DNA of 64,000 bases. It comes from Nitrospira sp. GTDB taxonomy: Bacteria; Nitrospirota; Nitrospiria; Nitrospirales; Nitrospiraceae. Where the stretch lies: the NCBI GenBank assembly GCA_024998625.1, contig JACOEL010000013.1, positions 1 through 64,000 of the forward strand. The letters run 5' to 3'. The notes below the pieces were generated by a model. That model was not told where the DNA came from, searched no databases, and saw only the letters and a list, made by a program, of their open reading frames with translations. Positions 41,530-57,102 of the stretch are shown here, in pieces. Position 1 is the stretch's first letter. The number at the start of each line of letters is the position of its first letter. Made by a program: the position numbers and the translations under genes.

Positions 41530-41540
41530 TGGCTCCCCGG
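41530..41540. repeat. Left attachment-core repeat (copy A)
   Basis: TGGCTCCCCGG is identical to the 3' end of the tRNA-Asn gene (complement of CCA plus discriminator and acceptor bases). It marks the proposed left boundary of element 1. Confidence 0.7.
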
Positions 41541-41662
41541 AAATGGTGAAGCTGGGCAATGGCACTGTGAAGTTCGAATAACAAGTAAGTTGTAAGCAGC
41601 TAGCCCACAAATCCAACATGATCGCTGGATACTGCAAATATCATATTGGGTCAGAGAAGCGC

Positions 41663-43135
41663 TTACCGCCCCAAATTTAACGCCTTCCAGATACCCTTGT
41701 GTAGAATTAGCGAATGCTCATTATTCAGAGCAGAGTGTCTGTTCCTGTACTTGAAAGTGTAATGGGTTTCTCCTCGAGAATTATAATAGATGTTTCCAAT
41801 CGCACTGCACTCGAAAAGTCTATTGATGATCTCCTCGAAATCCAATTTGGAATATTTTGCATGCTTCGACGCTCGTTCCGATAACTCCTGAAGCGTGAAC
41901 TCTCGTTTCCCCAATGAACTGATTAAACCCTGCATTAACTCAAATGTGTGCGAGTCAATATATCCCACCATTTCGTCTTTGATCTCTGGTAAAAAATAAT
42001 TAATCGAATAGTCTCGAACTCCTTCAAGGATCTGATCTCTTGTCAAGGGGCCTTCATGACCAACAGCGTGACGCTGGATGGCGGTTAAGACTTGAATGAA
42101 GTCTCTGGGGGTATGCCGTGTGAAATCAAGAAGAAATGATCTAATCGGTTGGCCCTCTCCATGGTCTTTATCTCGCTGGGCGATTGTTTTGGGGAAAAAC
42201 GAATGAAAGATATTTCCTATCCTCGGGTGCGTGACCCCCACTTTCCTATTCACTAACTCGATCAGTTTGGATTTCTCTGGGTTTCTTGGATCGTTAAACC
42301 AATCCAAAATTACGGAGGAATCCATCCGGATCTTGTTTTTGTTAGGTCCGGGCAAACGTTCAAATAAATCAGTGCGACATAAAAGTATTATCTTTGCAGG
42401 TGTATTGTTATTTCTAAAATGTGCGTTTAGCTGTCCAACCTCAAAAACAAGAGCTGCTAGTGAGTCATATTGGACATCTCTCTTGCTTAAAATATCATCT
42501 AGACCATCTATGATAAGTAAATGCCTGCTCTCACTTTTAAATGTGGCGGCGATAGCTTTCATCTGAGGTACAAAAAATTCAACGTCTAGTTCTTTGTCTT
42601 GAGATGTGCGCTCCCCTCCTGCTTCCCCAAAACCTAATAATGGTATTTTGAAATTTATCTTGGAAGTGACAAGGGTAAGATCTCGCAAGCTATCTGAGAG
42701 TATCAATCCAGCATGTCGTAGTGTGTCCAGTGTACTTATAAATTCTGATTCTTTGTTTGTGGGGGAACCGACATCCTTCGAAAAAGAGTTGAAGAGCTTT
42801 ATCAGTAGCAACCAAGACCATGCTGAAGGGAACCGGGATTCTGGTTCAGCGGTTCCCCGTATTATCGACTTGAAGTTCTTATATGGGAAATCTCCCAGTC
42901 TGCATACTTCCGTAAATTCGTGACTGTCGGCCTGTGAGGTTAACCTTAGATGTTCTCCAAATGCTGATTTGCCAGATCCTTTATAGCCCAGCCACAAATA
43001 CTTTGTGCCTAATCGTGCCTCTTTGGTCATGTCTCCGATATCAAGATACCCATTAAGTAGCAAGACAGGACTAGATGAACCTTCTTCTTCCGCGCTGGCA
43101 TACCCCAACTTCAAGTCAGAGAATTTTGTCGTCAC
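41663..43135 (-). CDS. P-loop ATPase of the Sll1717 type, putative defence protein
   Basis: A 490-residue STAND/KAP-like ATPase. Walker A is GYKGSGKS (residues 50-57); Walker B is LLIIDGLDD near residue 210; an arginine-bearing sensor strand IILLCRTDLFE follows. The C-terminal 90 residues are a winged-helix-like module (FTLQELSERASKHAKYSKLDFEEIINRLFECSAIG). It begins at GTG 43135 after GGGAGGTAAAGA. It is divergent from two HEPN-motif genes across a structured 620-bp region. Codon use and AT content differ from the host. Members of this family are often seen in defence islands; a function is not proven. Confidence 0.75.
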   Translation of the reverse strand: MTTKFSDLKLGYASAEEEGSSSPVLLLNGYLDIGDMTKEARLGTKYLWLGYKGSGKSAFGEHLRLTSQADSHEFTEVCRLGDFPYKNFKSIIRGTAEPESRFPSAWSWLLLIKLFNSFSKDVGSPTNKESEFISTLDTLRHAGLILSDSLRDLTLVTSKINFKIPLLGFGEAGGERTSQDKELDVEFFVPQMKAIAATFKSESRHLLIIDGLDDILSKRDVQYDSLAALVFEVGQLNAHFRNNNTPAKIILLCRTDLFERLPGPNKNKIRMDSSVILDWFNDPRNPEKSKLIELVNRKVGVTHPRIGNIFHSFFPKTIAQRDKDHGEGQPIRSFLLDFTRHTPRDFIQVLTAIQRHAVGHEGPLTRDQILEGVRDYSINYFLPEIKDEMVGYIDSHTFELMQGLISSLGKREFTLQELSERASKHAKYSKLDFEEIINRLFECSAIGNIYYNSRGETHYTFKYRNRHSALNNEHSLILHKGIWKALNLGR

Positions 43136-43755
43136 TCTTTACCTCCCTGGCGCGAGTGAGCTGCGGCAAGATCTAGAACTCATTTGCTGCCGTGCAGGCC
43201 AACTAATCGGCCAGGAGTGTAGGCGTCTAATGCAATCCCGTCAATATGAGCATGCTCTAAGCTAGTAAATAAAATGAGTGTATTTCCCTCTCAAAGGGAA
43301 GTGATTGATTGTGGTTGGAGTGCATACGCCACGGCCAAGAACTATATCGGTTATTAGTAATCGAGAGGGAGGAGCATCAGGTATGAGCCGCCCGATCCGG
43401 CAATAGCCGGACGGGCGGAACAGCCCCCGGCTCAGTAACACGGGGGGCTTGGGATACGTGAAGGTGACTACGCCGGGGAGTCAGAGCCTTCATTTAATCT
43501 ATTCATAAGGTTAAAGTAGGTTTCTCCACGCTATAAGTGATGAGCCCTCGCGTGAGTAAATTCAGATTACTGCCGTTAACATGGATGTGTAACAAATTAA
43601 ACGGCTTGCTCTTCGGGCTTACTCTATCTTTCATTGCGTATTTCGCTATGCTGTACGCAAACAATCTCTGTCTAAGCACCACAAAGAAAATATCTTTTAA
43701 CGAATTTTTTGTGAATATCCGCTTTCGATGAAACTAACATACGGAAAAACTAATT
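43136..43755. other. Divergent intergenic region with structured segment
   Basis: This 620-bp gap between the ATPase gene and the first HEPN-motif gene holds the candidate structured RNA listed at 43384-43492 and the promoters of both genes. A 64-codon open frame at 43537-43731 has no ribosome binding site and is not accepted as a gene. Confidence 0.5.
43384..43492 (+). ncRNA. Candidate structured RNA in element 1
   Basis: Several stems fit together. CCGCCCGATCCGGC (43388-43401) pairs with GCCGGACGGGCGG (43406-43418) with one bulged base. TGAGCCG (43384-43390) can pair with CGGCTCA (43428-43434), enclosing that hairpin. AGCCCCCG (43422-43429) can pair instead with CGGGGGGCT (43441-43449), which competes with the outer stem. 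TGACT and AGTCA form a further stem at about 43477-43492 region. GGAGGAGCATC lies just upstream. The family is unknown; it could be a replication origin rather than an RNA. Confidence 0.4.
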
Positions 43756-44865
43756 ATGGCTACCAACTGGTGGGTATTATTCCCGCTGAAGGGATTAGAA
43801 TTAACCGATCTTGAACATGATCTCGCAGATCCTCTTTGGTCTGACTCGACCATTATCTCAAAAGTGCAAGCAGCTACAATAGTAAGATCGATGCAGCGTA
43901 ACAAGGTGGCTACTTCTGGTCAGGCTCATGAGACGGATGCCGTCTATATGCTGGAGAACGCGACGTTCCAAGAAGAGTTCCATTCGTTTATAGCGATTAA
44001 AAGGTCTGGTCCTCGCCTGAACGAGGTTCCTGAAGAGTTTCATTGCGATATGTTTGAGCAGATTGAGGGAGATCCTGAAGGAAGAGCCACTGAGATTGGG
44101 GCATTAATAGAACTAGCCGTGTTGATTACTCGTAAGGACTGGACGACTTGCGCACTGGTTGATCAAATTCATAGGCGAACCAAGTCGACAATTAAGCTTT
44201 CTCTTGATGATTCTGCATATGGCGTTGAGTTAGCTGGGGGAGGTAGGTCAGCACGTAGCATTCTCAATGCGGCAGATAACGAGAAGTTATCTCGTGATGA
44301 CCTAAAGACTCGACTAAGTTCTAATCCCATCGCAGCTCTGGCGTCCGTACTCGCAAACCAAAGCTATTCAATTTCCTCCTCTTTGTACAAGGCTATTAGA
44401 GAATCAGCCATCCGGCTGTCGGATGCACTGCATGTCATCAAGGGAGCAGAGCAACTACTAGGTTCAGTCACGGCGATCGAGATATTGCTTTCTGACCAGC
44501 CTGAACGGTTTGATGTAATTAAGAACCGCATCGAGACGCTCATAAATTCCCAAGCATATAGTGTTTTTGAAACGGAAAAGGTGCTGAAGGCCAGGCATTC
44601 TTATGTACACCAAGGCCTCATCGGCCCAGATATACAAGCCTTAGCTCTGAAAGCGACCGGTCTCTCATTGTGTTGTTTACTAACGTATGCGGAGGCTGCA
44701 CCAAGGTTTACATCCAAATCCTCATTTCTTGCTTACCTGGATTTCATAAGGTTAGGTCAGAGGGCCACGTCTAGTTGGTCAGATAGTGACCGGACGGTGT
44801 TCGGCACTTTCGTTAGACACAGTTCTCATCGTTGTGAATTCCCATTTTTCAAGATCAATCACTAG
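43756..44865 (+). CDS. Hypothetical protein with HEPN-like R-x4-H motif
   Basis: A 369-residue, mostly helical protein of no recognised family. Near the C-terminus a helix ends in VLKARHSYVHQGL, giving R280-x4-H285, the spacing of HEPN ribonuclease active sites, and the surrounding helices (LLTYAEAA) suit an Apea/HEPN fold. Single motifs of this kind can occur by chance. It starts a plus-strand series opposite the Sll1717-like ATPase, and has the same AT-rich composition. Ribosome binding site is weak (ACGGAAAA). Confidence 0.6.
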   Translation: MATNWWVLFPLKGLELTDLEHDLADPLWSDSTIISKVQAATIVRSMQRNKVATSGQAHETDAVYMLENATFQEEFHSFIAIKRSGPRLNEVPEEFHCDMFEQIEGDPEGRATEIGALIELAVLITRKDWTTCALVDQIHRRTKSTIKLSLDDSAYGVELAGGGRSARSILNAADNEKLSRDDLKTRLSSNPIAALASVLANQSYSISSSLYKAIRESAIRLSDALHVIKGAEQLLGSVTAIEILLSDQPERFDVIKNRIETLINSQAYSVFETEKVLKARHSYVHQGLIGPDIQALALKATGLSLCCLLTYAEAAPRFTSKSSFLAYLDFIRLGQRATSSWSDSDRTVFGTFVRHSSHRCEFPFFKINH

Positions 44866-44968
44866 GTCCCAGCCGGAGAGCAGCTCAGGGGTTCAGGATG
44901 AGTTCCCGATTCAGCTACTCGACGACCGGATTTTTCAAGGTTTGTGACGCGACTCAGCGAGCATAAAG

Positions 44969-46114
44969 ATGGAATTGGAACACTGTGACATAAAAGAAGC
45001 GCACCTTTCTCCAGAGGGGTCGCCCTATAAATCAGGGGGGACTTCTGGGAAGCTGGTTCTGCCAGGCGATTTTGACGAATTGGCCCTTTTTAGTTTGCTG
45101 AAGTGGCGATTTGGTGCTCCGAATGGATTTATGAGTTTCTTGGGGCGCCCAGGAGGTGATCCCGACGGCCCATTCAAATGGGACTACTTGTTTAACCCCA
45201 GAGGCAACCTTAAGCTTCAGATCTTACGTACGGCGCATGGAATTGAGGTTTGGTGGTGGGGGGAAACCTGCAACTCTTCGAGCATATTGCGTTACTTAGA
45301 ACATAACTTGGATTTACATAAGGGGGAAATAGAAAGGGAAGCTAAGAATCTTGAAGAATATACCTTGCTCCTTAATCCTTATGTCCGGCATCGCCTCATT
45401 GCCACTCAAACTTTAGAAGCTCTAAGACTTATTAAGCCTTTAGCGCCAACACTGCCGCCAATAGCTGGTGCAAAGAAAAAGGAAATACACGGTTATACGA
45501 AGAGGATGGAGGCTTATATAAAGCTGACCCAAAAACAGGCGTCGTTAAATTTGTTACTTGTCATGGAATCGGCTTATATGGCAGAGGCTTATTTAAATCT
45601 CATATTGGCAGTCTTCATGCGGGAAGAAGTGAAGCTTTCACAGTCAATATATATGGAGACATTAATGCGTAAATGGAGATCAAAAATCGAGCGGTTGCAT
45701 TTAGACTGCAACTCTATCAAGAGCCCTGCTAACTTAGGGGATTCGCGTGTGCGCGATGCAAAAACGATGTTCGATTTGAGGAATAGAGTTGCACACTCTT
45801 ATCCCGATACAAAAGATTTGAAGCTTGGGACAATGTGGTTCCACCAATCTTATCCTATACTCCCCAAAGCAGTATCCTTTGAGAGTTTCACCATTGCTCT
45901 TAGCAATCAGCTTCCGTCTGTGGATGACGCAATCTTCTGTATGAAAGCGGCGGATCAACTGATAGCATTTCTGAGTGAACTTATCGACGATCGTTTTGTG
46001 AAGGGCTTCAAATTATTGGCTGAGGCAAACCCTTTGGGATTTAACGAGACAAAAAAAATATACGGCGTTCCATTTGGGCAAAAAGTTATCTTTGCATTTT
46101 TCGGGGCAAATTGA
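44969..46114 (+). CDS. Hypothetical protein with HEPN-type RN-x3-H motif
   Basis: A 381-residue protein. The C-terminal helical part has FDLRNRVAHSYPD, in which R271-N272 and H276 reproduce the catalytic RNxxxH motif of HEPN RNases at a helix end. Residues about 180-230 form preceding helices (KQASLNLLLVMESAYMAEAYLNLI). The N-terminal third is unrelated and tryptophan-rich (GIEVWWWGETCN). It follows the first HEPN-motif gene by about 100 bp, so the two could be one operon. Function is inferred only. Confidence 0.65.
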   Translation: MELEHCDIKEAHLSPEGSPYKSGGTSGKLVLPGDFDELALFSLLKWRFGAPNGFMSFLGRPGGDPDGPFKWDYLFNPRGNLKLQILRTAHGIEVWWWGETCNSSSILRYLEHNLDLHKGEIEREAKNLEEYTLLLNPYVRHRLIATQTLEALRLIKPLAPTLPPIAGAKKKEIHGYTKRMEAYIKLTQKQASLNLLLVMESAYMAEAYLNLILAVFMREEVKLSQSIYMETLMRKWRSKIERLHLDCNSIKSPANLGDSRVRDAKTMFDLRNRVAHSYPDTKDLKLGTMWFHQSYPILPKAVSFESFTIALSNQLPSVDDAIFCMKAADQLIAFLSELIDDRFVKGFKLLAEANPLGFNETKKIYGVPFGQKVIFAFFGAN

Positions 46115-46318
46115 TGCACAGCAATCGGGTTTTGGGAGTCTAGGGTGATGCTGTGGAAGGTTTGGACAACATTACATAACATTGCTCGGTTGTATTGAGC
46201 CTAAGCGCCGGCAGCCACGCGGGCGCATCTTGGGGGCAGGGGGGTGTCGTAAGACTCCCCCCGTTCTATTTCTAGCCAATCGGTGACGGCTCCTGGAATG
46301 CCTTCCTGGTGCGCCTGC

Positions 46319-46348
46319 TTGACATAAACGTAACGTCATGGTTACTAT
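46319..46348 (+). promoter_or_regulatory. Promoter of the MerR-type regulator with spacer palindrome
   Basis: TTGACA (46319-46324) and TACTAT (46343-46348) are 18 bases apart. The -10 box ends six bases before ATG 46355, so the transcript would be leaderless. TAACGTCATGGTTA (46331-46344), with TAAC/GTTA arms, sits mainly in the spacer, where MerR-family proteins bind. Confidence 0.65.
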
Positions 46349-46354
46349 TGGTCC

Positions 46355-47047
46355 ATGAGTAAACGAAAAAATACTGCGCCATCACTTCCACAGATGGAGA
46401 TGCCCGATATCGTGGGCCTGCCGCGCAATTGGGACATCCTTATCGAGTATCTTCGCCAGCGACGCTACACCTCAGGCGATATTGAAGCCTGCATCGGGGT
46501 GTCGCGTAAGGTCCTTAAGGATTGGGATAGGGCGGGTATTTTGGAGCAGCTCTATCAGGGGCTTGGATCTGGTCGTGGAGATGAGCGGTTTGGAAAATGG
46601 CGACTCTTTTCCATTTTCGACATTTGGAACCTCGCATTTTATAAGCGCCTCCGGGATGTCGGGATTGATATCGCGAGATTACGAGGGGTGAAGAAAGCGA
46701 ACCCGAATGAGGTATTTGAGGGAGGGCTTATTCAGTGGTGGTTCTATCAAGCTTTGCCCTCCTGGATCTATCGCCAGCCGTATTGGATACATAGCGACCT
46801 CGAAAAAGATGTCGGCTATACCTCCATCGAACGGAAAAACGCGGCGATTTATTTCGTTCGCATTCCCCACGTCGAGTCCATGGGAGGGGATCTCTTTATT
46901 ACGGTTAACCTGGTTCCGCTCATGGATAAGGTCATGATATTGAACGGCCCGCTTCAACTCACCTTGGACAAAATAAAAGGAATCACGGTTCGGATAGAGG
47001 AGCAAGAGCTTCGGCTTGAGCCGTTGCCGAAGCCTGAAGACCAATGA
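46355..47047 (+). CDS. MerR-type HTH regulator of the element
   Basis: A 230-residue protein. Residues about 35-110 form a winged helix-turn-helix of MerR type (YTSGDIEACIGVSRKVLKDWDRAGIL, FSIFDIWNLAFYKRLRDVGIDIARLRGV). The C-terminal 100 residues are a beta-rich domain of unknown ligand. It overlaps the replication-initiator gene by four bases (ATGA), so it probably controls replication or integration of the element. No ribosome binding site is present, in line with a leaderless message. Confidence 0.75.
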   Translation: MSKRKNTAPSLPQMEMPDIVGLPRNWDILIEYLRQRRYTSGDIEACIGVSRKVLKDWDRAGILEQLYQGLGSGRGDERFGKWRLFSIFDIWNLAFYKRLRDVGIDIARLRGVKKANPNEVFEGGLIQWWFYQALPSWIYRQPYWIHSDLEKDVGYTSIERKNAAIYFVRIPHVESMGGDLFITVNLVPLMDKVMILNGPLQLTLDKIKGITVRIEEQELRLEPLPKPEDQ

Positions 47048-48132
47048 ACGTCGAACAGATGGTGTATAAACTCCTCCTGCACGGAATCGACACGGTGCAG
47101 TGTGCCTACTATCTAACCCCGCCTGCCTCGAAATACCTCGACTTCAGAACCCTCGCCGTCATCAAGGAACAGCTTCGGATGAATAAGAGTCGGGAGCCTC
47201 GGGCCGTGAAGCTCGGCAATACCGAGTTCTTTATCCATCCGTATGGCAGCAGCTCAGGTTTCCCCTTCGTGCTTTCGAATGAGGATTTCAAAATTGAACT
47301 GGGAGAGTTTAACAATCCCTCCTTTTTCGTGACCTATCGAAGCCAAGCCCTCTGGCGACAATCGGCTTCAATTCTCCATGACAAGTTTGTGGCCTGGGCC
47401 ATGTCGGTCGGCTGTGAAATGCAGCAACCCGAAAGCCTTTCTCGGGTGGATTTCTGCTTCGACTATTCCCTGGCCGAGCGGGACTTTGGCGCAGATTCCT
47501 TCGTGAGCCTGTCGGACAAAGATAGCCAGCATCGAGAGAACGGCACCGTTCAGACCTTTACCTTGGGCAAGGGGGATGTGGTGCTTCGGGTCTACGACAA
47601 GATTGCGGAAATCCGGCAGCAAAGCGCCAAGGTCTGGTTTCACGAGTTGTGGGGGCAAGATGAGCATGTTTGGCGGATCGAATGGCAAGTCCGGAAGGCA
47701 CTGCTGAAAGGGTTCTCGATTCGAACGTTTGTGGATCTGCAGGAGCGGCAAGGGGCCTTGCTGCATTTCTTGGCTGAAAGCCACGATACGTTGAGGATTC
47801 GGACGGAGGACAGCAATCGGTCAAGGTGGCCTCTGCATCCTCTGTGGATTGATCTCCAGCAGCGGATTGCAGCTCTGCACAGGCTAGAAACCAAGCACCT
47901 TGACGGCAAAGATCTGGTCCTCGATGAACGGCTCATGAGGCTCACGATCAGCATCTATGGGTACCTGAAGCGGATGGCGGCCGTTTCCTGTGTGAAACAC
48001 GAACAGGAGATGATGACGGAAGAAGAGGCTTTTCAGCTTCTTGGAGAGCGGCTCCGTCGTCTGTTTGATCCACTGAGCTGGAAGGCCGATGTGCGCAAGC
48101 GCATGAAGGCCATTGAGTTGGGGGAATGGTGA
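47044..48132 (+). CDS. Replication-initiator-like protein
   Basis: A 362-residue protein resembling the Rep_trans/replication initiation factor family of rolling-circle plasmids and phages. Recognisable pieces are SRVDFCFDYSLAERDF near residue 138, LRVYDKIAEIRQQS and VWRIEWQVRKALLK near 215, the usual order in this family. Members nick one strand at the double-strand origin. It is translationally coupled to the regulator upstream and to a small gene downstream. Exact nucleophile tyrosine is not assigned. Confidence 0.65.
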   Translation: MNVEQMVYKLLLHGIDTVQCAYYLTPPASKYLDFRTLAVIKEQLRMNKSREPRAVKLGNTEFFIHPYGSSSGFPFVLSNEDFKIELGEFNNPSFFVTYRSQALWRQSASILHDKFVAWAMSVGCEMQQPESLSRVDFCFDYSLAERDFGADSFVSLSDKDSQHRENGTVQTFTLGKGDVVLRVYDKIAEIRQQSAKVWFHELWGQDEHVWRIEWQVRKALLKGFSIRTFVDLQERQGALLHFLAESHDTLRIRTEDSNRSRWPLHPLWIDLQQRIAALHRLETKHLDGKDLVLDERLMRLTISIYGYLKRMAAVSCVKHEQEMMTEEEAFQLLGERLRRLFDPLSWKADVRKRMKAIELGEW

Positions 48133-48338
48133 AGAAGGCCGAGGTCCTAAAACTGGTTCATGGTCATGTGACGCATGTGTTGCTTGTCGCCCAAGCCTCT
48201 TTGCCGTCAAGCCAGTTTCAGGCCTTTCGGACGGTGGTGCTCAATGAATTCGGACGGAACGGGTTGGAAGGGGAGTTGGAACGGTTGGAGTATCAGATAG
48301 GGGCTGAGGAACGGAACGGAATGGGCCGGAATATATGA
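48126..48338 (+). CDS. Small protein of the element
   Basis: A 70-residue protein whose ATG lies within the last codons of the replication gene (overlap of seven bases). It is basic at the start and helical (HVLLVAQASLPSSQFQAFRTVVLNEFG). No family is recognised. The coupling suggests a role with the replication protein. Confidence 0.5.
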   Translation: MVKKAEVLKLVHGHVTHVLLVAQASLPSSQFQAFRTVVLNEFGRNGLEGELERLEYQIGAEERNGMGRNI

Positions 48339-48362
48339 TGCACGAAAGGCGGTGGCCCATGC

Positions 48363-48509
48363 GTGTCCCATGAGGTTGAACCGAGCAACATTACGGTACG
48401 TTTCAACGTGGAATTGATCGAAGTGACCGACGCCGAGGTGGAGCTGATTGAAGCGTCCCTTGGCGAGCTGATTCCTGCACTGTTAGCGAACCAAGAGGAA
48501 GAAGGGTAA
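48363..48509 (+). CDS. Small acidic protein before the recombinase gene
   Basis: A 48-residue open frame beginning at GTG 48363 with AGGCGG about 11 bases upstream and ending four bases before the recombinase start. The product is acidic (VTDAEVELIEASLGELIP, ending EEEG). Position and overlap-like spacing suggest co-translation with the recombinase, perhaps as a directionality factor; that is a guess. Confidence 0.4.
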   Translation: MSHEVEPSNITVRFNVELIEVTDAEVELIEASLGELIPALLANQEEEG

Positions 48510-48513
48510 GGCC

Positions 48514-50214
48514 ATGATTGTCGCGCTCTATGCACGGGTTTCGACGAGTAAACAGGCGGAGAAAGATCTCTCCATTCCAGACCAACTCAATCAGATGCGG
48601 GCTTGGTGTCAGGCTAGCGGCCATACGGTGGGTGCGGAATATGTGGAGCCTGGCGCGTCGGCCACAGACGACCGGCGCCCGGTCTTTCAGCGCATGATTG
48701 GTGAAGTGTGTGTAAAACCTTCCCCCTTTGAGGCCATTGTGGTGCATAGCTTTTCTCGCTTCTTCCGGGATGCAATCGACTTTGGGATGTATGAACGGAA
48801 GCTGAAGAAATACGGGGTATCCGTGCAGTCCATCACTCAGCAGACCAGTGATGATCCTTCCGGTGAGATGATGCGCCAAATGATTAGTGTGTTCGATCAA
48901 TATGCGAGCAAAGAAAATGGCAAGCATACGCTGCGGGCTATGCGTGAAAATGCCAGGCAGGGTTTCTTCAACGGTTCGCGTCCTCCGGTGGGCTACCGCA
49001 CGGTGGAGGTAGAACTTCCCGGCAACAAGGGGAAGAAAAAACGGTTGGAAGTGGAAGATAGTGAAGCGGTCGTGGTGAACCGAATCTTTCAATGGTACCT
49101 GCATGGAGATCGAGGCCGGGAGCTTGGGCTATATGGGGTGGCGGCGCGTTTGAATGAACAAGGTGTCCTCATTCGGGGCCGCCAATGGACCAAGGGCCGT
49201 ATCTATGAGGTTTTGACCAACCGGGCCTATATCGGTGAGCACTATTTCAACAAATACGAAAAGCGAGGCAGGGATGTTCGGCGGATGAAGCCACGGGAGG
49301 AATGGGTGCCGGTCAAAGTCGAACCCATTGTGAACCAGGACCTGTTCGTGGCCGTGAAAGAGAAGTTGGAATCCAGATCCCCTGAGAAGGTTCCGCCGCG
49401 GGTCGTCAATTGCCCTACGCTTCTTACTGGATTACTGAAATGCGGGGTTTGTGGGTCCGGGATGACGCTGGCAACCGGCAAAGGTGGGAAGTATCGCTAT
49501 TACAAGTGTTCAAGTCGGATTCTCAAGGGGAAGGACACCTGCGCAAGCGAAAACCTCCCCACTGAGCTGGTTGATCGGCTCGTTCTGACCTCGTTGGCAG
49601 ACAAGGTCTTTACGCCCTCACGAGTCCAAGCCATGTTGGAAGGGCTTAGGAAGCGTTTGAGGCTGTCCCAAACCGATTATGAGGGGAAATTGAAGCAGTT
49701 GACCAAGGAAGTCGAAAGCCTGCAACACAGAAGCAATCAGCTCTATGAGGCGGTAGAGAAGGGTTTGTTACCGATGGACGAGACGTTGACCGCTCGGGCC
49801 AACAAAATACAGGCTCAGCGGCAGGCCTTATTGCTCGAAATAGCGGGGCTTCGACGGCTGAAGCAAATGCCTGTGGATGCGCTTGGAGAGAAGAAGGTGC
49901 AGGGCTTTATCACGGTCTTGCGTGAACGGTTAATCGAGAAAGACCGCTCCTTCAGCAAGCACTATCTCAAGCTTCTCGTCGATGAGATCCGGTGTCTCGA
50001 TAAACAGCTTGTGATGAAAGGGAGCTATGCAGCGCTTGCCAAGATGGTTGGAGAAACTAAAAAGGGCACCCCAGATAGTGGAGTGCCCAGTTTTGGTCTA
50101 GATTGGCTCCCCGGTCTGTATCCTCGTCGGACGCTCCGGTTCGCATTAATGATCAGGTCACGACCGCTATCCATAACGCCGAAAAACTGGATTGAGGGAA
50201 AATCGACTAGTTAA
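48514..50214 (+). CDS. Large serine recombinase of element 1
   Basis: A 566-residue recombinase. The resolvase domain has catalytic Ser10 in LYARVSTSKQ and the arginines of VHSFSRFFRD; a recombinase domain follows, then a zinc ribbon (CGVCGSGM, CSS, C) and a coiled coil (about 390-450). Expected to join tRNA-Asn attB with the element end. AAGGGTAAGG precedes ATG 48514. The 3' part encodes a terminator-like hairpin and crosses att-core copy B, so the last 60 residues are probably adaptive read-through. Relation to the second recombinase (59.6 kb) is only moderate. Confidence 0.9.
   Translation: MIVALYARVSTSKQAEKDLSIPDQLNQMRAWCQASGHTVGAEYVEPGASATDDRRPVFQRMIGEVCVKPSPFEAIVVHSFSRFFRDAIDFGMYERKLKKYGVSVQSITQQTSDDPSGEMMRQMISVFDQYASKENGKHTLRAMRENARQGFFNGSRPPVGYRTVEVELPGNKGKKKRLEVEDSEAVVVNRIFQWYLHGDRGRELGLYGVAARLNEQGVLIRGRQWTKGRIYEVLTNRAYIGEHYFNKYEKRGRDVRRMKPREEWVPVKVEPIVNQDLFVAVKEKLESRSPEKVPPRVVNCPTLLTGLLKCGVCGSGMTLATGKGGKYRYYKCSSRILKGKDTCASENLPTELVDRLVLTSLADKVFTPSRVQAMLEGLRKRLRLSQTDYEGKLKQLTKEVESLQHRSNQLYEAVEKGLLPMDETLTARANKIQAQRQALLLEIAGLRRLKQMPVDALGEKKVQGFITVLRERLIEKDRSFSKHYLKLLVDEIRCLDKQLVMKGSYAALAKMVGETKKGTPDSGVPSFGLDWLPGLYPRRTLRFALMIRSRPLSITPKNWIEGKSTS
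50056..50096. terminator. Hairpin inside the recombinase 3' end
   Basis: GGGCACCCC and GGAGTGCCC surround a short loop with AAAAA on the left and AGTTTT on the right, giving a bidirectional terminator shape just before att-core copy B. It lies inside the recombinase reading frame. Confidence 0.55.
50103..50114. repeat. Central attachment-core repeat (copy B)
   Basis: TTGGCTCCCCGG, identical over 12 bases to the tRNA-Asn 3' end at 59558-59569. It is the proposed junction of elements 1 and 2. Confidence 0.75.
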
Positions 50215-50216
50215 AA

Positions 50217-50250
50217 AAAAGGGCACTGGTTTAGCACCGGTGCCCTTTAG
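50217..50250. terminator. Intrinsic terminator behind the recombinase gene
   Basis: AAGGGCACTGGT and ACCGGTGCCCTT form a stem with one wobble pair around TTAGC. An A8 run precedes the left arm, so on the minus strand it reads as hairpin plus T-run and would end the protease transcript. Confidence 0.7.
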
Positions 50251-50270
50251 CAAATATGCGATAAGCGCGC

Positions 50271-50507
50271 TCACTCTACAAAGTCTATATAACTCCCAAA
50301 ACTGTTGTCCGCCAAAACTGCCTGGTTGGTTGGCGCACCCACCATGGTGACGGAATTCAATTCTTCGGCCACTATTGGAATATTTGAAGGCGCAGAGGTG
50401 CTGCTAAACCGATCAGGAAGAATGGATGGCGTATGATGCCATTCGTTCGTCTGTGACATCACCCTTACTGAGCAATACAAATTTTGAGTCTGCCTTGGTG
50501 TTTTCAT
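50271..50507 (-). CDS. Small protein downstream of the SDH-like protease
   Basis: A 78-residue product from ATG 50507, preceded by GAGGGT. It lacks hydrophobic segments and has a Ser/Pro/Asn-rich middle. It follows the protease gene on the same strand after about 200 bp and precedes a terminator. It could be a substrate or cofactor of the protease, but no family is recognised and the gene may be spurious. Confidence 0.35.
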   Translation of the reverse strand: MKTPRQTQNLYCSVRVMSQTNEWHHTPSILPDRFSSTSAPSNIPIVAEELNSVTMVGAPTNQAVLADNSFGSYIDFVE

Positions 50508-50705
50508 AAGGACCCTCATGATACCAGGCTTAGGTTAATATTAGCTAACCGAAGGTTACGCAACTGTTATGCCAAAATGATAGCGTAGAACCCTATGATA
50601 TAACGGGCCGTCCCTAAAGAAGGGGGCGCAACGATGCGGAAAAATGGTACACATGTGGGAAAATAATTCCTAGGACAGAGTAACAGGGATATATAGCCGA
50701 CAGTG

Positions 50706-51728
50706 TTATTCTCCTTGCCAACCTTGAGAATGAGTGATCATTTGTACGGTAGTAACGCCATTGGTCCCTTTTGCTCCTGAAAGTTGATAGTTTAATGAAA
50801 AGACATCGGTTCTAAATGAACTCTCGACGAAGGCAAGTTTTGCCTTACTCATTGGAGTTAAGGCTTGCTGGCCTGGCTGCATTTGTGGATTTAGAGCAAC
50901 GAATTCAGATGCCACATTGAATGGTTCCTCAGTTTTAATCTCGCGTTCGTAATCTAAATAAAGTTTCCACATCGCTTCTTCGACGGAGGGACTTGGGTCC
51001 TCTACGGTCGCTAGACCTAAATCTCTTGCTTCCCTACGATTAATAGGATGTCCATGGTAAAAAAGCTTGGAAGTAAAATTGTCCACTATCTCACTTATTT
51101 TATGAGCATCCCTCTGTCCATCCATATGCAACGAAAGCAACTTCTCGGCCATCATTCTCGATTGTGAAAGAGATCTTTTCACATTTCCAAGGGCCAATGG
51201 GTGAACTTTATCTGACAATTTGTTGAAGGCCTGAACCAACTCTTCCTCATGCTGGATGCCGGCATCCTCTTTAATCAACGCGATGTATGCCGTAACATCT
51301 TCTACACTGATACCGATACGTTGACCCCCTTCGACCGGGTTAAAAGAGTTGGTAACAGTGGGGTCAGTCGGTCCAAGCATGCCCATTGGGTGCATAATAA
51401 TACTGTCCGCACCGAGAGCAGTAAGAGTGGCAGCACTGAAAGCGCGATAGGGAACCAATACGGAGAATTTTTCAGCATATTCTCGAATGAGCGTAACCAA
51501 TCGCCAGGGAACGATTCCGTCCCCACCATTACTACAAAGGAATAGATCAACTTTGATTTTCCCATCCGAAGATTTCACGGCCGACAAGTGATCGAATATT
51601 CGTCTGACCGAATCAATAGCCATCTGCACTTCCAATTGCTGACGAGTACTCGTTATATAGGAGATTAAACAAGTTCCTCTCTCAGCCTCGATTGATCTAA
51701 TAAGCTGTAGACGCTCAGCCTTCGCCAT
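50706..51728 (-). CDS. SDH/SppA-type Clp-fold serine protease
   Basis: A 340-residue protein of the serine dehydratase-proteinase group. The Clp/crotonase core is visible: VDLFLCSNGGDG, then VPYRAFSAATLTALGAD with probable nucleophile S98, and MLGPTDP after the oxyanion helix. No signal peptide is evident, so it is cytoplasmic or peripheral. GGAG lies before ATG 51728. It has AT-rich codon use. It is the first cargo gene inside element 2. Substrate unknown; such proteases also occur in defence-associated gene sets. Confidence 0.75.
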   Translation of the reverse strand: MAKAERLQLIRSIEAERGTCLISYITSTRQQLEVQMAIDSVRRIFDHLSAVKSSDGKIKVDLFLCSNGGDGIVPWRLVTLIREYAEKFSVLVPYRAFSAATLTALGADSIIMHPMGMLGPTDPTVTNSFNPVEGGQRIGISVEDVTAYIALIKEDAGIQHEEELVQAFNKLSDKVHPLALGNVKRSLSQSRMMAEKLLSLHMDGQRDAHKISEIVDNFTSKLFYHGHPINRREARDLGLATVEDPSPSVEEAMWKLYLDYEREIKTEEPFNVASEFVALNPQMQPGQQALTPMSKAKLAFVESSFRTDVFSLNYQLSGAKGTNGVTTVQMITHSQGWQGE

Positions 51729-51961
51729 GCCGTTTCACTCCAATGGTTCTCAGGGCGCCCACTCGCTGGGCGCGCATAATATCGTACTACCATTACTCTG
51801 GAGTCAAGGCTTAGCGCACCCACTTTGATGCGGGCATGGAAATTCCAACAATGGTGGTATTACCTCAGCTAGAGCTTGATTCCACAGAATGCTTCTATAG
51901 GACTGAGGCTATACCCTGGCGGTAATTGTGATTCTACTTTGACCATATGAATCAAGTGAAG

Positions 51962-52020
51962 CGGGGGCTTCGCCCCCGAGCCCCCCGGCCGTCCGGTCCG
52001 TTTGGTCCGGAACGGCCGGC
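51962..52020. repeat. Two adjacent GC-rich hairpins
   Basis: CGGGGGC (51962-51968) pairs with GCCCCCG (51972-51978) across TTC. Beside it, CCGGCCGT pairs with ACGGCCGG over a 19-base loop that itself contains CCGG arms. The DNA is far more GC-rich than the flanks. Confidence 0.6.
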
Positions 52021-52112
52021 GGGTCTCCGTGGACGACCTAAGCTGCATTAATTTGATCATCCTGGTTGTATGGTCCCCTCTTGATTGGTTGCCTAGGCAT
52101 GACAAGAGTCCA

Positions 52113-52197
52113 AGGGGACGGCCAAGCTAGCGCATCGCCGTCAGCCTTTGTGAAGGCTCATCGCCCCTCTCACCCCTTAGAAGCAGAGGGGGGGTGA
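52113..52197. ncRNA. Candidate structured RNA between protease and cld genes
   Basis: AGGGG (52113-52117) pairs with CCCCT (52164-52168), enclosing GACGGC/GCCGTC (52117-52122 with 52137-52142) and AGCCTT/AAGGCT (52143-52148 with 52153-52158). A further stem TCACCCC (52170-52176) with GGGGTGA (52191-52197) follows. The strand is unknown. It could also be an origin of replication. Confidence 0.35.
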
Positions 52198-52257
52198 CAG
52201 GGCAGAGAGCATACGGAATCAATGAGACGAATGTAGGAAGTCAGCTGTCGCGTGGTG

Positions 52258-52286
52258 TGGCCACCCCTTCTGATTCAAGGTGGCCA
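52258..52286. repeat. Inverted repeat downstream of cld
   Basis: TGGCCACC (52258-52265) and GGTGGCCA (52279-52286) flank a 13-base loop. It lies 30 bases beyond the cld stop codon. No T-run follows on the minus strand, so any termination would be weak. Confidence 0.55.
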
Positions 52287-52315
52287 CTATGCAATGAAAT
52301 TACGGTGAACAAAGA

Positions 52316-53110
52316 CTAGCGACTGAGGATCTCGAGGATCTCGTCCAGGGGGCGGATGGTTCCCAACAACAAGGGATCACCAAAACGCTTATTGTGTCGA
52401 TTCTCTTTGACCTTGAGCAGCCCGATGACGAGATTGTTAAAGTCGTCTAGCTTGGATGTCTCAAAATAGGTGATAAAATCCCAATCATCCAACCCGCTTG
52501 CGTGATACAGCTTCCGTTTGACGGTCTTCAAATAGCTCACAGTGGCGTCGGTATGCTCTTTCATCATGCCGTTTCGAGCATCTTGCCCAGAGATCCACCA
52601 CTCTGCGTCCTTGCGTATAGGAACAACGATGACGTACGGACTGCCCTGGGGCGGCGGTGTTTTCAATTCAGCCTTCAATTCCTCAGGAAAGCTGGGCACA
52701 TACGCCAACGCCTTTGTGATGCCATTGAAGGTATATGTGTTTTTTAAATGTTTGCCTAGAGTAGTGCCCATTAAATCAATGAGAAAGTTTTGGTTGGACA
52801 GTATCTCCGGAGAGTGGATGCGCACTAGAAAATCGGCCTTCTCAACGAGCCCTCTCAGCAAATAGGCATCGGTGATGACTGTCTCGCTATGTTTTTGGAA
52901 CACGGCCTTCATTTCCGACACTGCAGACATCCTTGCAGGCTTATCCAGCTTCCACCAGTCCTCATCGACCTGGAAAACCGCGAAGGTTCCATAAACGCCT
53001 GGGTCCTTAAGCAGCTTATCCCGATCCATGGCCGCCTCACTCACCAATGAGAGGAGGGGAAGCAGGCAGGTTAAAAGCGTCAACATGGCAATTTGACTGA
53101 GTTTCTTCAT
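52316..53110 (-). CDS. cld: Periplasmic chlorite dismutase
   Basis: A 264-residue heme enzyme that converts chlorite to chloride and oxygen. A signal peptide (LSQIAMLTLLTCLLPLLSLVSEA) gives export. Conserved active-site residues can be placed by alignment to the known Nitrospira enzyme with an offset of 26: proximal H186, distal R199 (TVKRKLYH), K167 and E236 (VKENRHN). The DEDWW, GLDDWDFITYFE and FGDPLLLGTIRPLDEIL segments complete the match. AAGGAG lies before ATG 53110. It follows a kinase and response regulator on the same strand and has a phased array of GTGA boxes at its promoter. Confidence 0.93.
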   Translation of the reverse strand: MKKLSQIAMLTLLTCLLPLLSLVSEAAMDRDKLLKDPGVYGTFAVFQVDEDWWKLDKPARMSAVSEMKAVFQKHSETVITDAYLLRGLVEKADFLVRIHSPEILSNQNFLIDLMGTTLGKHLKNTYTFNGITKALAYVPSFPEELKAELKTPPPQGSPYVIVVPIRKDAEWWISGQDARNGMMKEHTDATVSYLKTVKRKLYHASGLDDWDFITYFETSKLDDFNNLVIGLLKVKENRHNKRFGDPLLLGTIRPLDEILEILSR

Positions 53111-53156
53111 AGATTCATTTCTCCTTTTGGTGAGAATCGCTGCGTTGACGACACCA

Positions 53157-53217
53157 CTTATAAAGGATAGGCATCTCTTCTCACAGCGGTCTCACGAAAT
53201 GGTCACATTTTTATCAC
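53157..53217 (-). promoter_or_regulatory. cld promoter with four phased GTGA boxes
   Basis: On the plus strand TCAC occurs at 53181, 53192, 53203 and 53214, each exactly 11 bp apart (GTGA on the coding strand). A TATAAG -10 box lies at 53162-53157, so the last box falls where the -35 element should be. OmpR/PhoB-type regulators bind direct repeats with this 11-bp spacing next to a poor -35. Transcript start would be near 53150. Confidence 0.7.
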
Positions 53218-53253
53218 GCCAGTATGGGGGTAGCAGAGCCTTGAACAACGACA

Positions 53254-54732
53254 TTAAGAGCGAGCAGTAGCTAATTCAAAGCTAATGGAGGTTCCAACGT
53301 TGGGGCTGCTTTCTGCCCGAATTGTACTTCCATGAAGCTCAATAATTCGCTTTGTGATGGCGAGCCCAAGTCCGGCTCCTCCAGATTGGTCTTCCCGATT
53401 CGCTTTATAAAAGCGGTCAAATATATAAGGAAGGTCGTGTGCTTCAATGCCGCAACCCGTATCATAAACGCATACCATGACTGAGCCGGGTTTCGGGCTT
53501 AACGAAACCACAATTGTACCGCCGGCTGCAGTGTAACGTGCGGCATTCTGAATGATGTTCTCCAACGCCCGCTCGATGAGGCCGATGTCGGCCTCTACAA
53601 ATGGAAGATCGCTTGGAAAATTGCTGTTCAAAGCTATCCCCTTGTTCGCAACGGTGAGTTGAAACTTTTGACACACATCCTGCACGAGCTCGGCTATAGA
53701 AAATTCTTCGCGTTGTATACTGGCTTCACGTGAATCCAAGCGAGCCAGTTCAAAAAGCTCTCCCACCAGTTCCCTCAGCCGTTCGCTTTGCTTTAGAGCA
53801 ATGTCTAAAAAGGTCCGATGTTCCTCTTGGGTAAGCGTTCCTTCCTTCATCAACAATGTCTCTAAGTATCCATGAAGAGATGCCAGGGGTGTCCGCAAAT
53901 CATGAGACACGTTGGCCACTAACTCACGCCGAAGGACGTCTGTCTGCTTGAGAGTGGCCACTTGCTGAAGAATGCGTTGCACCATCCGATGGAACGTTGT
54001 CCGAAGTCGATCTATCTCATCACCTTGCCGCTCTGGAATAAGGTCCTGCGGTAGTACCCCTGCGCTTGCTGAAAAATCGTTCTTCGCAAATGTTTCCATC
54101 GTCAATGCCAGCTTAGTGAGTCTCCTTGTAAGCATGTTGAAAAGAAAAAGACCGGCCAAGAGAGCGAACAGTAGGCCAGTGAGTGCCGTCCAGACGCTCA
54201 AACGGAGAATGTAGCTCCGTCGCAGCATGTCGACCACGGAGTCATATTCTTCTCCGCCCAGAACAATGTACAGATAGCCCGTTGGCTCTCCTGATAAGGG
54301 TATCGGAGCGGCGGAAAAAACCTTTTTGCGAGAAGCATCGCGGGGATCATCGCCGAGAATAGGGAATGCATCCGTTTGAGCCAGAAAGTTCTGGATTGGA
54401 TCTAGTGATACAGACGAGCGTTTGACCTTCTCAGGAGGAGCGGAGAAGTTAGTTATAATCCCGTTCGCATCAAGCAAGTACATTTCAATGCTTGGATTGA
54501 CAACCATGAGCAGATGAAAGAGTTCTTTGAGCGCATAGGGGCTGACCTCTCCTTGGCTACTCAGCAGCTGATCAGCAACGATGTTTCTAGCCAGGCTGCG
54601 GTTCAGCTTCTGATTGACCTCCTGCTGATACATGCCGGTCGTGAAGACCGTAAGCAGGGTATATAAAAGCCCAACGGCGCAAAATAATAGAAGCCAAACG
54701 AGGGCGAGTTTGCCGTAAAGCGACCGCGTCAT
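53254..54732 (-). CDS. Two-component sensor histidine kinase (cld-associated)
   Basis: A 492-residue membrane kinase. One membrane segment near residues 8-30, a periplasmic sensing domain of about 135 residues, a second segment (LSVWTALTGLLFALLAGLFLFNML), a HAMP linker, the phospho-acceptor H277 in VANVSHDLRTPLASLHGY, and an ATPase domain (NAARYTAAGG, DTGCGIEAHD, GAGLGLAITKRIIE). The periplasmic position suits sensing an exported enzyme's substrate. It starts two bases after the response-regulator stop, and cld begins 143 bp after its end. Confidence 0.92.
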   Translation of the reverse strand: MTRSLYGKLALVWLLLFCAVGLLYTLLTVFTTGMYQQEVNQKLNRSLARNIVADQLLSSQGEVSPYALKELFHLLMVVNPSIEMYLLDANGIITNFSAPPEKVKRSSVSLDPIQNFLAQTDAFPILGDDPRDASRKKVFSAAPIPLSGEPTGYLYIVLGGEEYDSVVDMLRRSYILRLSVWTALTGLLFALLAGLFLFNMLTRRLTKLALTMETFAKNDFSASAGVLPQDLIPERQGDEIDRLRTTFHRMVQRILQQVATLKQTDVLRRELVANVSHDLRTPLASLHGYLETLLMKEGTLTQEEHRTFLDIALKQSERLRELVGELFELARLDSREASIQREEFSIAELVQDVCQKFQLTVANKGIALNSNFPSDLPFVEADIGLIERALENIIQNAARYTAAGGTIVVSLSPKPGSVMVCVYDTGCGIEAHDLPYIFDRFYKANREDQSGGAGLGLAITKRIIELHGSTIRAESSPNVGTSISFELATARS

Positions 54733-54734
54733 GA

Positions 54735-55454
54735 TCAGTTCCCTAGTCCTGATGTTCCTAGTTCACAGAATTTGTACCCGACGCCCCACACGGTCAGAAT
54801 AAATTCGGGGTTGGCGGAATCCTTTTCGATCTTGCTGCGCAATCTGTTGATATGCGAATTCACGGTATGCTCATAGCCGTCGTGACCATATCCCCAGACC
54901 GCATCGAGAAGCTGAGATCGAGTATAAACACGGCCAGGATGGAGGGCGAACTGAAGGAGTAAATCGAATTCTTTGGCCGTGAGATCGACGGGATCGCCTC
55001 TCACGACCACCTTTCGTTTCTCAATATCGATGTAGAGCCGGTCCCCTCGTATAATTTTCTGCAGGTCCTGCGTCTTATCGCTGAAGGCTTCTGAACGGCG
55101 GAAGAGGGCCTTAATCCGCGCGAGCAATTCCCGAACACTAAACGGTTTGGTTACATAGTCGTCAGCGCCCACTTCCAGCCCGAGGACACGGTCCAGTTCC
55201 GATGATTTCGCCGTCAACATGAGGATGGGTGTATAAGTGGAAAGCGATCGAATCTGACGGCATATCTCTAACCCGTCGATGCCGGGAAGCATCACATCGA
55301 GAATAATAAGGTCATAGATCTTCGAGCGAACAGACTGAAGACCATCCTTTCCAGTTCTGGCAATGTCTACGGCGTAGGCTAGATCGGTCAGATGCATATT
55401 CAAGAGCCGACCAATATCCAAATCGTCTTCAACTACAAGGATGTGTTTCGCCAT
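54735..55454 (-). CDS. OmpR/PhoB-family response regulator (cld-associated)
   Basis: A 239-residue regulator. The receiver has acidic pocket ED-D (9-11), phospho-acceptor D53 in LIILDVMLPG and Lys in TKPFS. The C-terminal winged helix shows VDLTAKEFDLLLQFALHPGRVYTRSQLLDAVWG and VNSHINRLRSKIE. It is the first gene of the regulator-kinase-cld series. Two GTGA boxes 11 bp apart lie about 50-65 bases upstream, matching the four boxes at cld, so it likely controls itself and cld. Confidence 0.93.
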   Translation of the reverse strand: MAKHILVVEDDLDIGRLLNMHLTDLAYAVDIARTGKDGLQSVRSKIYDLIILDVMLPGIDGLEICRQIRSLSTYTPILMLTAKSSELDRVLGLEVGADDYVTKPFSVRELLARIKALFRRSEAFSDKTQDLQKIIRGDRLYIDIEKRKVVVRGDPVDLTAKEFDLLLQFALHPGRVYTRSQLLDAVWGYGHDGYEHTVNSHINRLRSKIEKDSANPEFILTVWGVGYKFCELGTSGLGN

Positions 55455-55502
55455 GTCTGCCTGCGCCGAGAGATAATGAGAAATGCCTTAGCATAGCGCC
55501 CA

Positions 55503-55517
55503 TCACAAAATCATCAC
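55503..55517 (-). promoter_or_regulatory. Two phased GTGA boxes upstream of the response regulator
   Basis: TCAC occurs at 55503-55506 and 55514-55517 (start to start 11 bp) in CATCACAAAATCATCACA. The 7-base unit CATCACA is repeated exactly. It is the same core and phase as the array at cld. Confidence 0.65.
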
Positions 55518-55562
55518 AGACCGGCCTCTACGCATACTTTGTTGAATCGCACCATGCAGAGC

Positions 55563-55811
55563 CTAGAAGCGGAATCTGCGTGTGGTAAGTCCAGCACAGG
55601 AACAGCAGAGCCAAATTTCTCGCATGACATTGTCGGTGTGATAGCACAGACGGCCCCATGTTCGATCTGCTTGGCAAAACTCACAGAGCCGTTCTTTACC
55701 GTGTTCAGAGCACAGCCAGCCCTTTCGAGCCCGATCATAAATGGTGCCAGTTCGCCCACAGTAAGTGGGTCCGAACAGGGAAGTGATCCTTTTGACACAA
55801 GGATTGCTCAT
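55563..55811 (-). CDS. Small cysteine-rich, zinc-ribbon-like protein
   Basis: An 82-residue protein with eight or more cysteines and histidines arranged as possible zinc ribbons (TYCGRTG, WLCSEHGKERLCEFCQ, RLCYH, WLCCSCAG). Its ATG overlaps the stop of the Rep-like gene (ATGA). It probably acts with that protein on DNA. The alternative frame at 55514-55798 is rejected. Confidence 0.6.
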   Translation of the reverse strand: MSNPCVKRITSLFGPTYCGRTGTIYDRARKGWLCSEHGKERLCEFCQADRTWGRLCYHTDNVMREIWLCCSCAGLTTRRFRF

Positions 55812-56554
55812 GGCTGACTCGATATGAGGCCTTTTCCAAGAACAAGTTGCAAAACAAAGCCGTTGTAGAGAATCGCATGCCCAGCCAGCAGGTCTTCCCA
55901 GGTTTTGTATAGAACGACGCGAGGGATCTCTAGCTCACCTCGAATCCGCCGGAAGACGTTCCGACTGGACCATTGATTCCTCATCTCTTCCCATAAGGTG
56001 CTCATCGGGAAGCCCAACGAACGTTTCCAGGACCAACACATGTTCACGTACCCCGATTGGTCTTGAACATATTGGCTGATGACATACCGGCTCAAACGAT
56101 TGCGAGACCGCTGGCCAGGCTCATAGGCCTTAATCCAGACAACTGGAGCTCCGTGCAGCGCTCTCCATTGGGCTGAAAGCCAGGACTGGGCAATCCAGAA
56201 GTGCCGATGACGCTCGCCATCTGGAACTCGCCACGCCCAAAAGATATGTAGGACTCCATGGCCCTCTTGTGTGCGCACTTGATAATATTCCATCCCTCGA
56301 TAACCAAGCTGACGCTCGATTCGTTGGCGTAATTGCTTATGATGATAGGTCAGTTTGTCGGCCTGTCCACCTTCGGCTGTAGAGAGCGTGACCCAAAGCA
56401 CCTGAAAGTGATGGGCTTCCCAAAACCACAACAGCGAACGTATGCGCTGATAGCCTCGCTTTTGCTTGCGAGACCATTCCGGTCTTACAGGACGGTCGAT
56501 AGAACGAGCTGCTTCACCACTTGTCTTGAACCAAGAAGGAAAGCGTTCAGACAT
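55808..56554 (-). CDS. Rep/transposase-like protein with possible HUH-type motif
   Basis: A 248-residue protein rich in aromatic and basic residues. RTQEGHGVLHIFWAWRVP near residue 98 is a strand with spaced histidines like the metal-binding motif of rolling-circle replication and transposition endonucleases; RNRLSRYVISQYVQDQSGY later supplies candidate catalytic tyrosines. ATG 56554 has GGGAG eight bases upstream; the open frame reaches 56617. It is flanked by a small gene (overlap) and a zinc-ribbon gene (overlap). It probably replicates or mobilises element 2. Confidence 0.5.
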   Translation of the reverse strand: MSERFPSWFKTSGEAARSIDRPVRPEWSRKQKRGYQRIRSLLWFWEAHHFQVLWVTLSTAEGGQADKLTYHHKQLRQRIERQLGYRGMEYYQVRTQEGHGVLHIFWAWRVPDGERHRHFWIAQSWLSAQWRALHGAPVVWIKAYEPGQRSRNRLSRYVISQYVQDQSGYVNMCWSWKRSLGFPMSTLWEEMRNQWSSRNVFRRIRGELEIPRVVLYKTWEDLLAGHAILYNGFVLQLVLGKGLISSQP

Positions 56555-56738
56555 GAAAGCGCTCCCGCTGTGAGGGTTGTGCTGGGCTAGATGGGGAAAC
56601 ACGTTCTGGCAGGACAACGGAAGATCTCATGGGCTCAGATATCCGTCTGGCACCCTGAAGCAGCAACGTCTGCAAGAGGGCGATGCACTCTTTCCGTGCC
56701 TGCGAATCGATTGGAACGAATTGAATTTCAATCTTCAT
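56547..56738 (-). CDS. Small protein between XRE and Rep-like genes
   Basis: A 63-residue product from ATG 56738, which overlaps the end of the XRE gene by 11 bases; its stop overlaps the Rep-like start by eight. The N-terminal part (IEIQFVPIDSQARKECIALLQTLLLQG) is helical. The nested overlaps indicate translational coupling. No family is recognised. Confidence 0.5.
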   Translation of the reverse strand: MKIEIQFVPIDSQARKECIALLQTLLLQGARRISEPMRSSVVLPERVSPSSPAQPSQRERFHV

Positions 56739-57006
56739 TGTGATGCCCATTGGGCAACATATCGGTATCACAAAACTCAATGGGGCCCAATGTGTATTCA
56801 GGCTGTAACTGAAACAGCTCATCGACTGTGCAGTCGAAAAATTGCGCGAGTGCTAAGGCTACCGCGAGGCTCGGAAGGGCTTTCCCCTGTTCCATTCTCG
56901 TGACATAGGAACGACTGACGCCGATTCTGCGTGCCAGGGCTGCCTTTGACAGGCCACGTTGCGTTTGTCGAGCTCGCCATTCTTTGAGGTGGTTCTTGAT
57001 CATCAT
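56728..57006 (-). CDS. XRE-family HTH regulator
   Basis: A 92-residue protein with an N-terminal HTH (LSKAALARRIGVSRSYVTRMEQGKALPSLAVALALAQFFDCTVDELF). GGAGG lies before two successive ATG codons (57006 or 57003). It heads the minus-strand Rep-like operon and is divergent from a second XRE gene, typical of a repressor pair. Confidence 0.85.
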   Translation of the reverse strand: MMIKNHLKEWRARQTQRGLSKAALARRIGVSRSYVTRMEQGKALPSLAVALALAQFFDCTVDELFQLQPEYTLGPIEFCDTDMLPNGHHNED

Positions 57007-57024
57007 CGTCCTCCGTTAAGGGCC

Positions 57025-57053
57025 ACTATAGAGATGCGTTGCCCAATGGTCAA
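57025..57053 (-). promoter_or_regulatory. Leftward promoter of the XRE/Rep operon
   Basis: On the minus strand TTGACC (57053-57048) and TATAGT (57030-57025) are 17 bases apart, with a ribosome binding site and ATG 57006 following. Confidence 0.7.
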
Positions 57054-57072
57054 TAGATGGAGGTATTTTGTG

Positions 57073-57102
57073 TTGACTAGAAGACAACAAATCAGATATA
57101 GC
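57073..57102 (+). promoter_or_regulatory. Rightward promoter of the XRE/ImmA/recombinase operon
   Basis: TTGACT (57073-57078) and TATAGC (57097-57102) are 18 bases apart. The -10 box ends seven bases before ATG 57110, so the message is probably leaderless. The leftward promoter lies back to back 20 bases away. Confidence 0.65.

Follow-up and report, generated by a model that had tools for sequence, protein, structure and literature searches.

Three neighbouring genes on a tRNA-Asn island of Nitrospira: a relative of phage P2 Fun(Z), a HEPN protein and a tentative second one

The locus and its genes

The DNA analysed here is a stretch of 64,000 nucleotides from Nitrospira sp., referred to below as the window. 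It carries three adjoining genes, here called A, B and C, whose positions are given in Table 1 together with those of the surrounding features. An original prediction, made from the DNA letters, had described the three as a candidate defence module, comprising an Sll1717-like ATPase, two AT-rich genes for proteins with HEPN motifs, and a structured segment. All three open reading frames are present, and the region is indeed AT-rich, with approximately 43–47% GC against approximately 60% leftward of it. The residue pairs that had been singled out, R280/H285 in the product of gene B and R271-N272/H276 in that of gene C, can both be read in the translations.

Gene A is divergent from gene B and lies approximately 620 bp from it, with a dispersed repeat in the gap. 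Genes B and C share a strand and are separated by 103 bp. There is no clear terminator between them, terminator candidates numbering near the chance level, and the two genes could be co-transcribed.

The R-x4-H motif is common in proteins of this size. It appears in 50% of shuffled versions of gene B and in 40% of those of gene C, is present in 67% of other open reading frames with similar length, and occurs once in the ATPase gene A. The motif alone was therefore rejected as evidence for HEPN identity, its frequency being at chance level. The motifs of genes B and C are meaningful because they are conserved, in 54/54 aligned sequences for gene C and in the sole relative found for gene B. The possibility that genes B and C are relatives of each other was likewise rejected, as a comparison of their profiles shows no similarity. 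A link to DS-41 (NF053860, E 0.024) was set aside as too weak.

Table 1. Features of the locus and of the island that carries it (positions in the window)
Feature	Position	Strand	Description
Left attachment repeat TGGCTCCCCGG	41530-41540	+	11-bp direct repeat with 59559-59569
Genomic island, 18 kb	41541-59558		Left end carries genes A, B and C
Gene A	41663-43135	-	490 aa; stand-alone Sll1717-family P-loop ATPase; Fun(Z) of phage P2 is in this family too
Two-hairpin repeat copy, ~75 bp	43386-43466		Dispersed in the genus, not gene-specific
Gene B	43756-44865	+	369 aa; tentative HEPN protein; R280-H281-x3-H285, E216-x3-R220
Gene C	44969-46114	+	381 aa; HEPN protein; R271-N272-x3-H276
Mobility genes	46355-50214	+	MerR-like regulator, putative replication-initiator-like protein, large serine recombinase
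tRNA-Asn (GTT), integration target	59559-59634	-	Found by ARAGORN; right attachment repeat at its 3' end (59559-59569)

The island and the repeat between genes A and B

What holds genes A, B and C together is a common island, bounded by a short direct repeat and inserted at a tRNA-Asn gene. The empty site can be seen in three closely related genomes (G023, G019 and G015), in which the sequence of window positions 41531-41540 is joined directly to that of 59559. Genes A, B and C themselves were absent from 99 other genomes compared by single-sequence search. After these genes, the island encodes a MerR-like regulator and what is probably a replication protein, as well as two large serine recombinases. 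Pfam matches to the mobility genes comprise Resolvase (6.6e-27), Recombinase (1.4e-18) and MerR_1 (0.003), and positions 47044-48132 of the mobility region gave no family match.

A related island is found in genome G022, where only the right part is shared (approximately 55563-59558). The right-hand serine recombinase reading frame (57966-59634) has a C-terminus that runs into the antisense of the tRNA-Asn gene. Another island gene (50706-51728) is similar to phrog_11747, a phage family of unknown function, and weakly similar to head maturation or ClpP-like proteases.

The original prediction had also mentioned a structured segment between the genes. The stretch 43360-43500, which lies between genes A and B, is structured (z = -3.3), and the stretch between genes B and C, 44866-44968, has no unusual structure (z = +0.5). 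The core of the former is, however, a two-hairpin repeat that is dispersed over the genus in at least 10 copies: nine further copies occur in six other genomes of the genus, at no more than 91% identity and in both orientations. Because the repeat recurs across the genus and Rfam returned nothing believable for the segment, the idea that it serves the module as a functional RNA was rejected. The repeat may be a REP-like sequence or may represent one end of a small mobile element, and the copy between genes A and B is possibly a scar, not a part.

Gene A and the anti-phage protein Fun(Z)

Gene A is a member of the Sll1717 family, as had been proposed. It matches the NCBIfam model NF047389 across profile positions 1-454 with 265 bits (1.3e-78), the curated cut-off being 75. 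The protein has a Walker A motif (GYKGSGKS), a Walker B motif (HLLIIDGLDD) and PRD at 343-345, and the Walker residues G53, G55, K56, D210 and D213 are invariant in 12 aligned sequences. PADLOC gives no recognition of gene A, and a single-sequence scan of viral contigs gave no match to it.

The strongest link at the locus, which was absent from the original prediction, is that of gene A to Fun(Z) of phage P2, which turned up in a search of phage records. Fun(Z) reaches 209 bits on the same NF047389 model, is aligned with gene A by blastp at 25% identity over 443 aa (2e-20), and is paired by hhalign, at 99.5% probability, with a profile built from 12 sequences of the Sll1717 family. By these sequence comparisons, gene A is homologous to a single-gene anti-phage protein. 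The phage P2 record (NC_001895.1, 15675-17261) annotates fun(Z) with the words ‘cloned gene blocks growth of T5’. In the BASEL study, Fun/Z inhibited all Tevenvirinae, Vequintavirinae and Markadamsvirinae tested, and its mechanism was described in 2021 as unknown (PMC8594841). Since Fun(Z) acts as a single cloned gene, a lone gene can protect within the family of gene A. According to a review, fun has been swapped between P2-like phages and bacteria via flanking inverted repeats (PMC8987985).

Gene A and Fun(Z) share not only their family but also their setting, each being a lone gene carried by a mobile element, and plasmid-borne relatives of gene A stand alone as well. They differ in length (490 aa for gene A, 528 aa for Fun(Z)) and, at the identity given above, considerably in sequence, and the anti-phage role of gene A is a predicted one.

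Several Sll1717 ATPases of Nitrospirota occur in other arrangements. One has a bSEFIR-like N-terminus (L118:5320-7668; PADLOC 9e-17), another has an N-terminus resembling nucleoside deoxyribosyltransferases (L115:5881-8364), and a third lies less than 1 kb from a TIR gene (L120:5899-9057). The two fused proteins resemble gene A in having an ATPase core that scores above the family cut-off, whereas gene A lacks any such fusion to an effector domain. The fusion pattern is consistent with an ATP-driven switch that would also be able to drive a fused effector.

Gene C and a widespread HEPN family

Relatives of gene C were reached stepwise. A single-sequence search of plasmids gave five distant relatives, and the alignment of these led to seven IMG/VR viral contigs and then to 66 loci in one large genome collection. 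The alignment was needed, as a scan of viral contigs with the single gene C sequence gave nothing. The family is distributed among Proteobacteria, Bacteroidota, Planctomycetes, Cyanobacteria, Nitrospirota and others.

The protein consists of an N-terminal mixed alpha/beta domain (approximately 23-119) and a C-terminal HEPN domain (approximately 131-354). The published HEPN signature is R-x4-6-H with a polar residue after the arginine and an acidic residue upstream (PMC3710099). In the gene C family, R-x4-6-H with the polar residue is present in 54/54 sequences. The residues R271, N272, H276, E206, C247, W71, G53, N136, F291, P296 and G357 are invariant among the 54, two of them (G53 and W71) lying in the N-terminal domain, which carries a near-invariant GxPNG...DSDN..HW signature.

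The structure prediction that had been proposed for both HEPN candidates succeeded for gene C, with a model of pLDDT 87.8 and pTM 0.83. In structural alignment, the five best matches of this model are all HEPN proteins: 2hsb (Z 10.4), the toxin 7ae6 (6.9), Csm6 (6.2) and AbiV (6.1 and 6.0). The 2hsb match extends over 119/126 residues, although for a helical bundle a Z of 10 is not decisive alone. Foldseek gave no match at E 0.001, and a comparison with BFVD gave no significant match. The claim for the fold consequently rests on the structural aligner together with the motif, which identify gene C as a HEPN protein.

Compared with known HEPN RNases (AF0298, that is 2hsb, together with 7ae6, Csm6, AbiV and RnlA), gene C has the same fold, with Z from 10.4 to 4.8, and the same combination of R-x4-H, a polar residue after the arginine and an acidic residue upstream. 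It differs from them in having its own N-terminal domain and in being recognised by no Pfam, NCBIfam or PADLOC profile. Across the family, Pfam and PADLOC gave no recognition beyond isolated weak matches in single members, and NCBIfam, searched with the window protein alone, gave nothing. A link to DS-41 (NF053860, E 0.024) was set aside as too weak.

The neighbours of gene C relatives vary. No gene family is common across the loci beyond close relatives, and no antitoxin-like partner recurs. Some copies adjoin Qat genes, and the 78 nearest-neighbour proteins include matches to models for Drt4, type III restriction, Hachiman and Lamassu, along with five phage integrases; members of the family are also found on plasmids. 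The count of neighbours is a raw one, and this defence-gene neighbourhood is suggestive only.

Gene B, a tentative HEPN protein

Only one full-length relative of gene B was obtained, in a search of the whole class (genome G498, L130:8322-9431; 37% identity, E 1e-66). It keeps R280, H281, H285 and E216, a conservation seen in two sequences only and in a motif that by itself is at chance level. Searches for relatives in plasmids, phages, viral contigs and genome contigs found none, and there was no match to Pfam or to solved structures. The AlphaFold model, built from two sequences, has a pLDDT of 34.5. Thus, of the two HEPN proteins originally put forward, gene C is upheld by its fold and invariant motif, whereas for gene B, with its poor model, HEPN identity is plausible and tentative, as judged from the retained residues.

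Do the three genes occur together?

Co-occurrence was assessed with profiles run both ways over 77 C-family loci (approximately 1 Mb), 18 Sll1717 loci drawn from Nitrospirota, plasmids and phages, and 395 genomes of the phylum. Profile searches found no relative of gene A or gene B at the 77 C-family loci, or at one Nitrospirota relative searched in addition, and no relative of gene B or gene C at the 18 Sll1717 loci. The test at the latter loci works, because the gene A profile itself scores strongly there. Two weak Sll1717 matches near C-family loci were dismissed, their Walker A motifs resembling those of ABC-transporter ATPases. Among the 395 phylum genomes, gene C is present in 2 and gene A above the cut-off in 11, and both occur only in the window's own genome. 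The sole relative of gene B has no gene A nearby and no gene C within 8 kb; gene C was not found in its genome at all, although an empty result there is weak.

Genes A, B and C therefore look like neighbours and not like one machine, since their relatives were never found together. The original prediction had itself named a failure of homologues to co-occur as grounds for refutation. By that standard the proposed module of an ATPase with two HEPN proteins is not supported, given this pattern at the level of loci and of phylum genomes and the ability of Fun(Z) to protect alone. The more general proposal, that these are defence-type genes, is supported as far as the kind of gene is concerned.

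The explanation that best accounts for the locus, and that is probably correct, is that three independently acquired and probably single-gene anti-phage cargoes have come to lie on one tRNA-Asn island and do not form one system. It is rather unlikely that genes B and C instead constitute a two-gene HEPN pair, either a heterodimer or a toxin with its regulator, next to an unrelated gene A. Their common strand and close spacing, the R-x4-H motif in both, and the fact that both are missing from close relatives and share one island would fit such a pair, but the sole B relative has no C gene beside it, B relatives are found at 0/77 C loci, and the profiles of B and C are dissimilar. A rare pairing is nevertheless compatible with these counts, because one relative of gene B is known and gene C's own subclade has two members, the window copy and one in a Planctomycetia bin (L017). 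The latter, at 52% identity the closest relative of gene C, is immediately followed by the gene for a UG19 reverse transcriptase, the two reading frames overlapping (L017:6998-10253; 532 bits, HEAT-like repeats), and for this reason the subclade may, at least there, work with a partner.

A role in maintaining the island, through stability or toxin–antitoxin functions and not against phages, is very unlikely. The three genes do adjoin the mobility genes, and HEPN proteins can be the toxins of toxin–antitoxin pairs (PMC3710099). Set against this are the homology of gene A to Fun(Z), the lack of a recurrent antitoxin-like partner beside C relatives, and the occurrence of the C family in IMG/VR viral contigs and beside defence genes. 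The least probable of the readings considered is a three-part system in which the ATPase, on sensing infection, would license both HEPN RNases. Adjacency on one island is in its favour, as are pairings of ATPases with HEPN proteins that are known in principle, including fusions of STAND and ABC ATPases to HEPN domains (PMC3710099), but it is opposed by the failure to co-occur, by the divergent orientation of gene A and the repeat-containing gap that separates it from gene B, and by the protection that its relative Fun(Z) gives unaided. The same slight probability is assigned to a version in which two distinct HEPN RNases are under the control of a Fun(Z)-type ATPase, in a combination assembled once here and too rare for co-occurrence to be seen.

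Predicted modes of action and significance

If the three genes are independent cargoes, each would act for itself. Gene A would most likely bind ATP, respond to some signal that an infecting phage provides and, by analogy with P2 Fun(Z), abort the infection by itself. Gene C would most likely be a dimeric, metal-independent RNase acting through R271, N272 and H276. Its N-terminal domain may restrain or aim the HEPN activity, the release of which upon infection would stop translation. Gene B is predicted to act probably in the same general mode as gene C.

Gene A ties the large and little-studied Sll1717 ATPase family to the long-known phage-blocking Fun(Z). The SEFIR-like fused relatives suggest a sensor ATPase, which offers a testable route to the mechanism of Fun(Z). 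Gene C, in turn, exposes a HEPN family that is widespread, with 66 loci in a single large genome collection. Current defence annotation likely misses this family, because none of the protein libraries searched contains a profile for it.

Further arrangements within the family are of interest in their own right. The pairing in the Planctomycetia bin is a possible system of a reverse transcriptase with a separate HEPN protein. In AbiA, a reverse transcriptase and a HEPN domain are combined within one protein (PMC8934634). The L017 locus resembles AbiA and other RT-HEPN systems in that a reverse transcriptase (UG19) accompanies the HEPN relative of gene C, and differs from them in that this relative is a separate upstream gene; genes B and C differ further, as no reverse transcriptase adjoins them. 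In Mesorhizobium, a conserved protein of 371 aa is encoded directly upstream of the C-family gene at four loci (L073:5714-6829, L074:5788-6903, L078:5770-6885 and L080:5770-6885), and a DUF4172 (Fic-type) match in the Pfam tally of neighbours may correspond to this protein. In Acinetobacter (L024, L028, L034 and L037), the C-family gene occupies a fixed place, with a valyl-tRNA-synthetase-like gene on one side and a DUF559-like gene on the other, and this site is a possible insertion hot spot.
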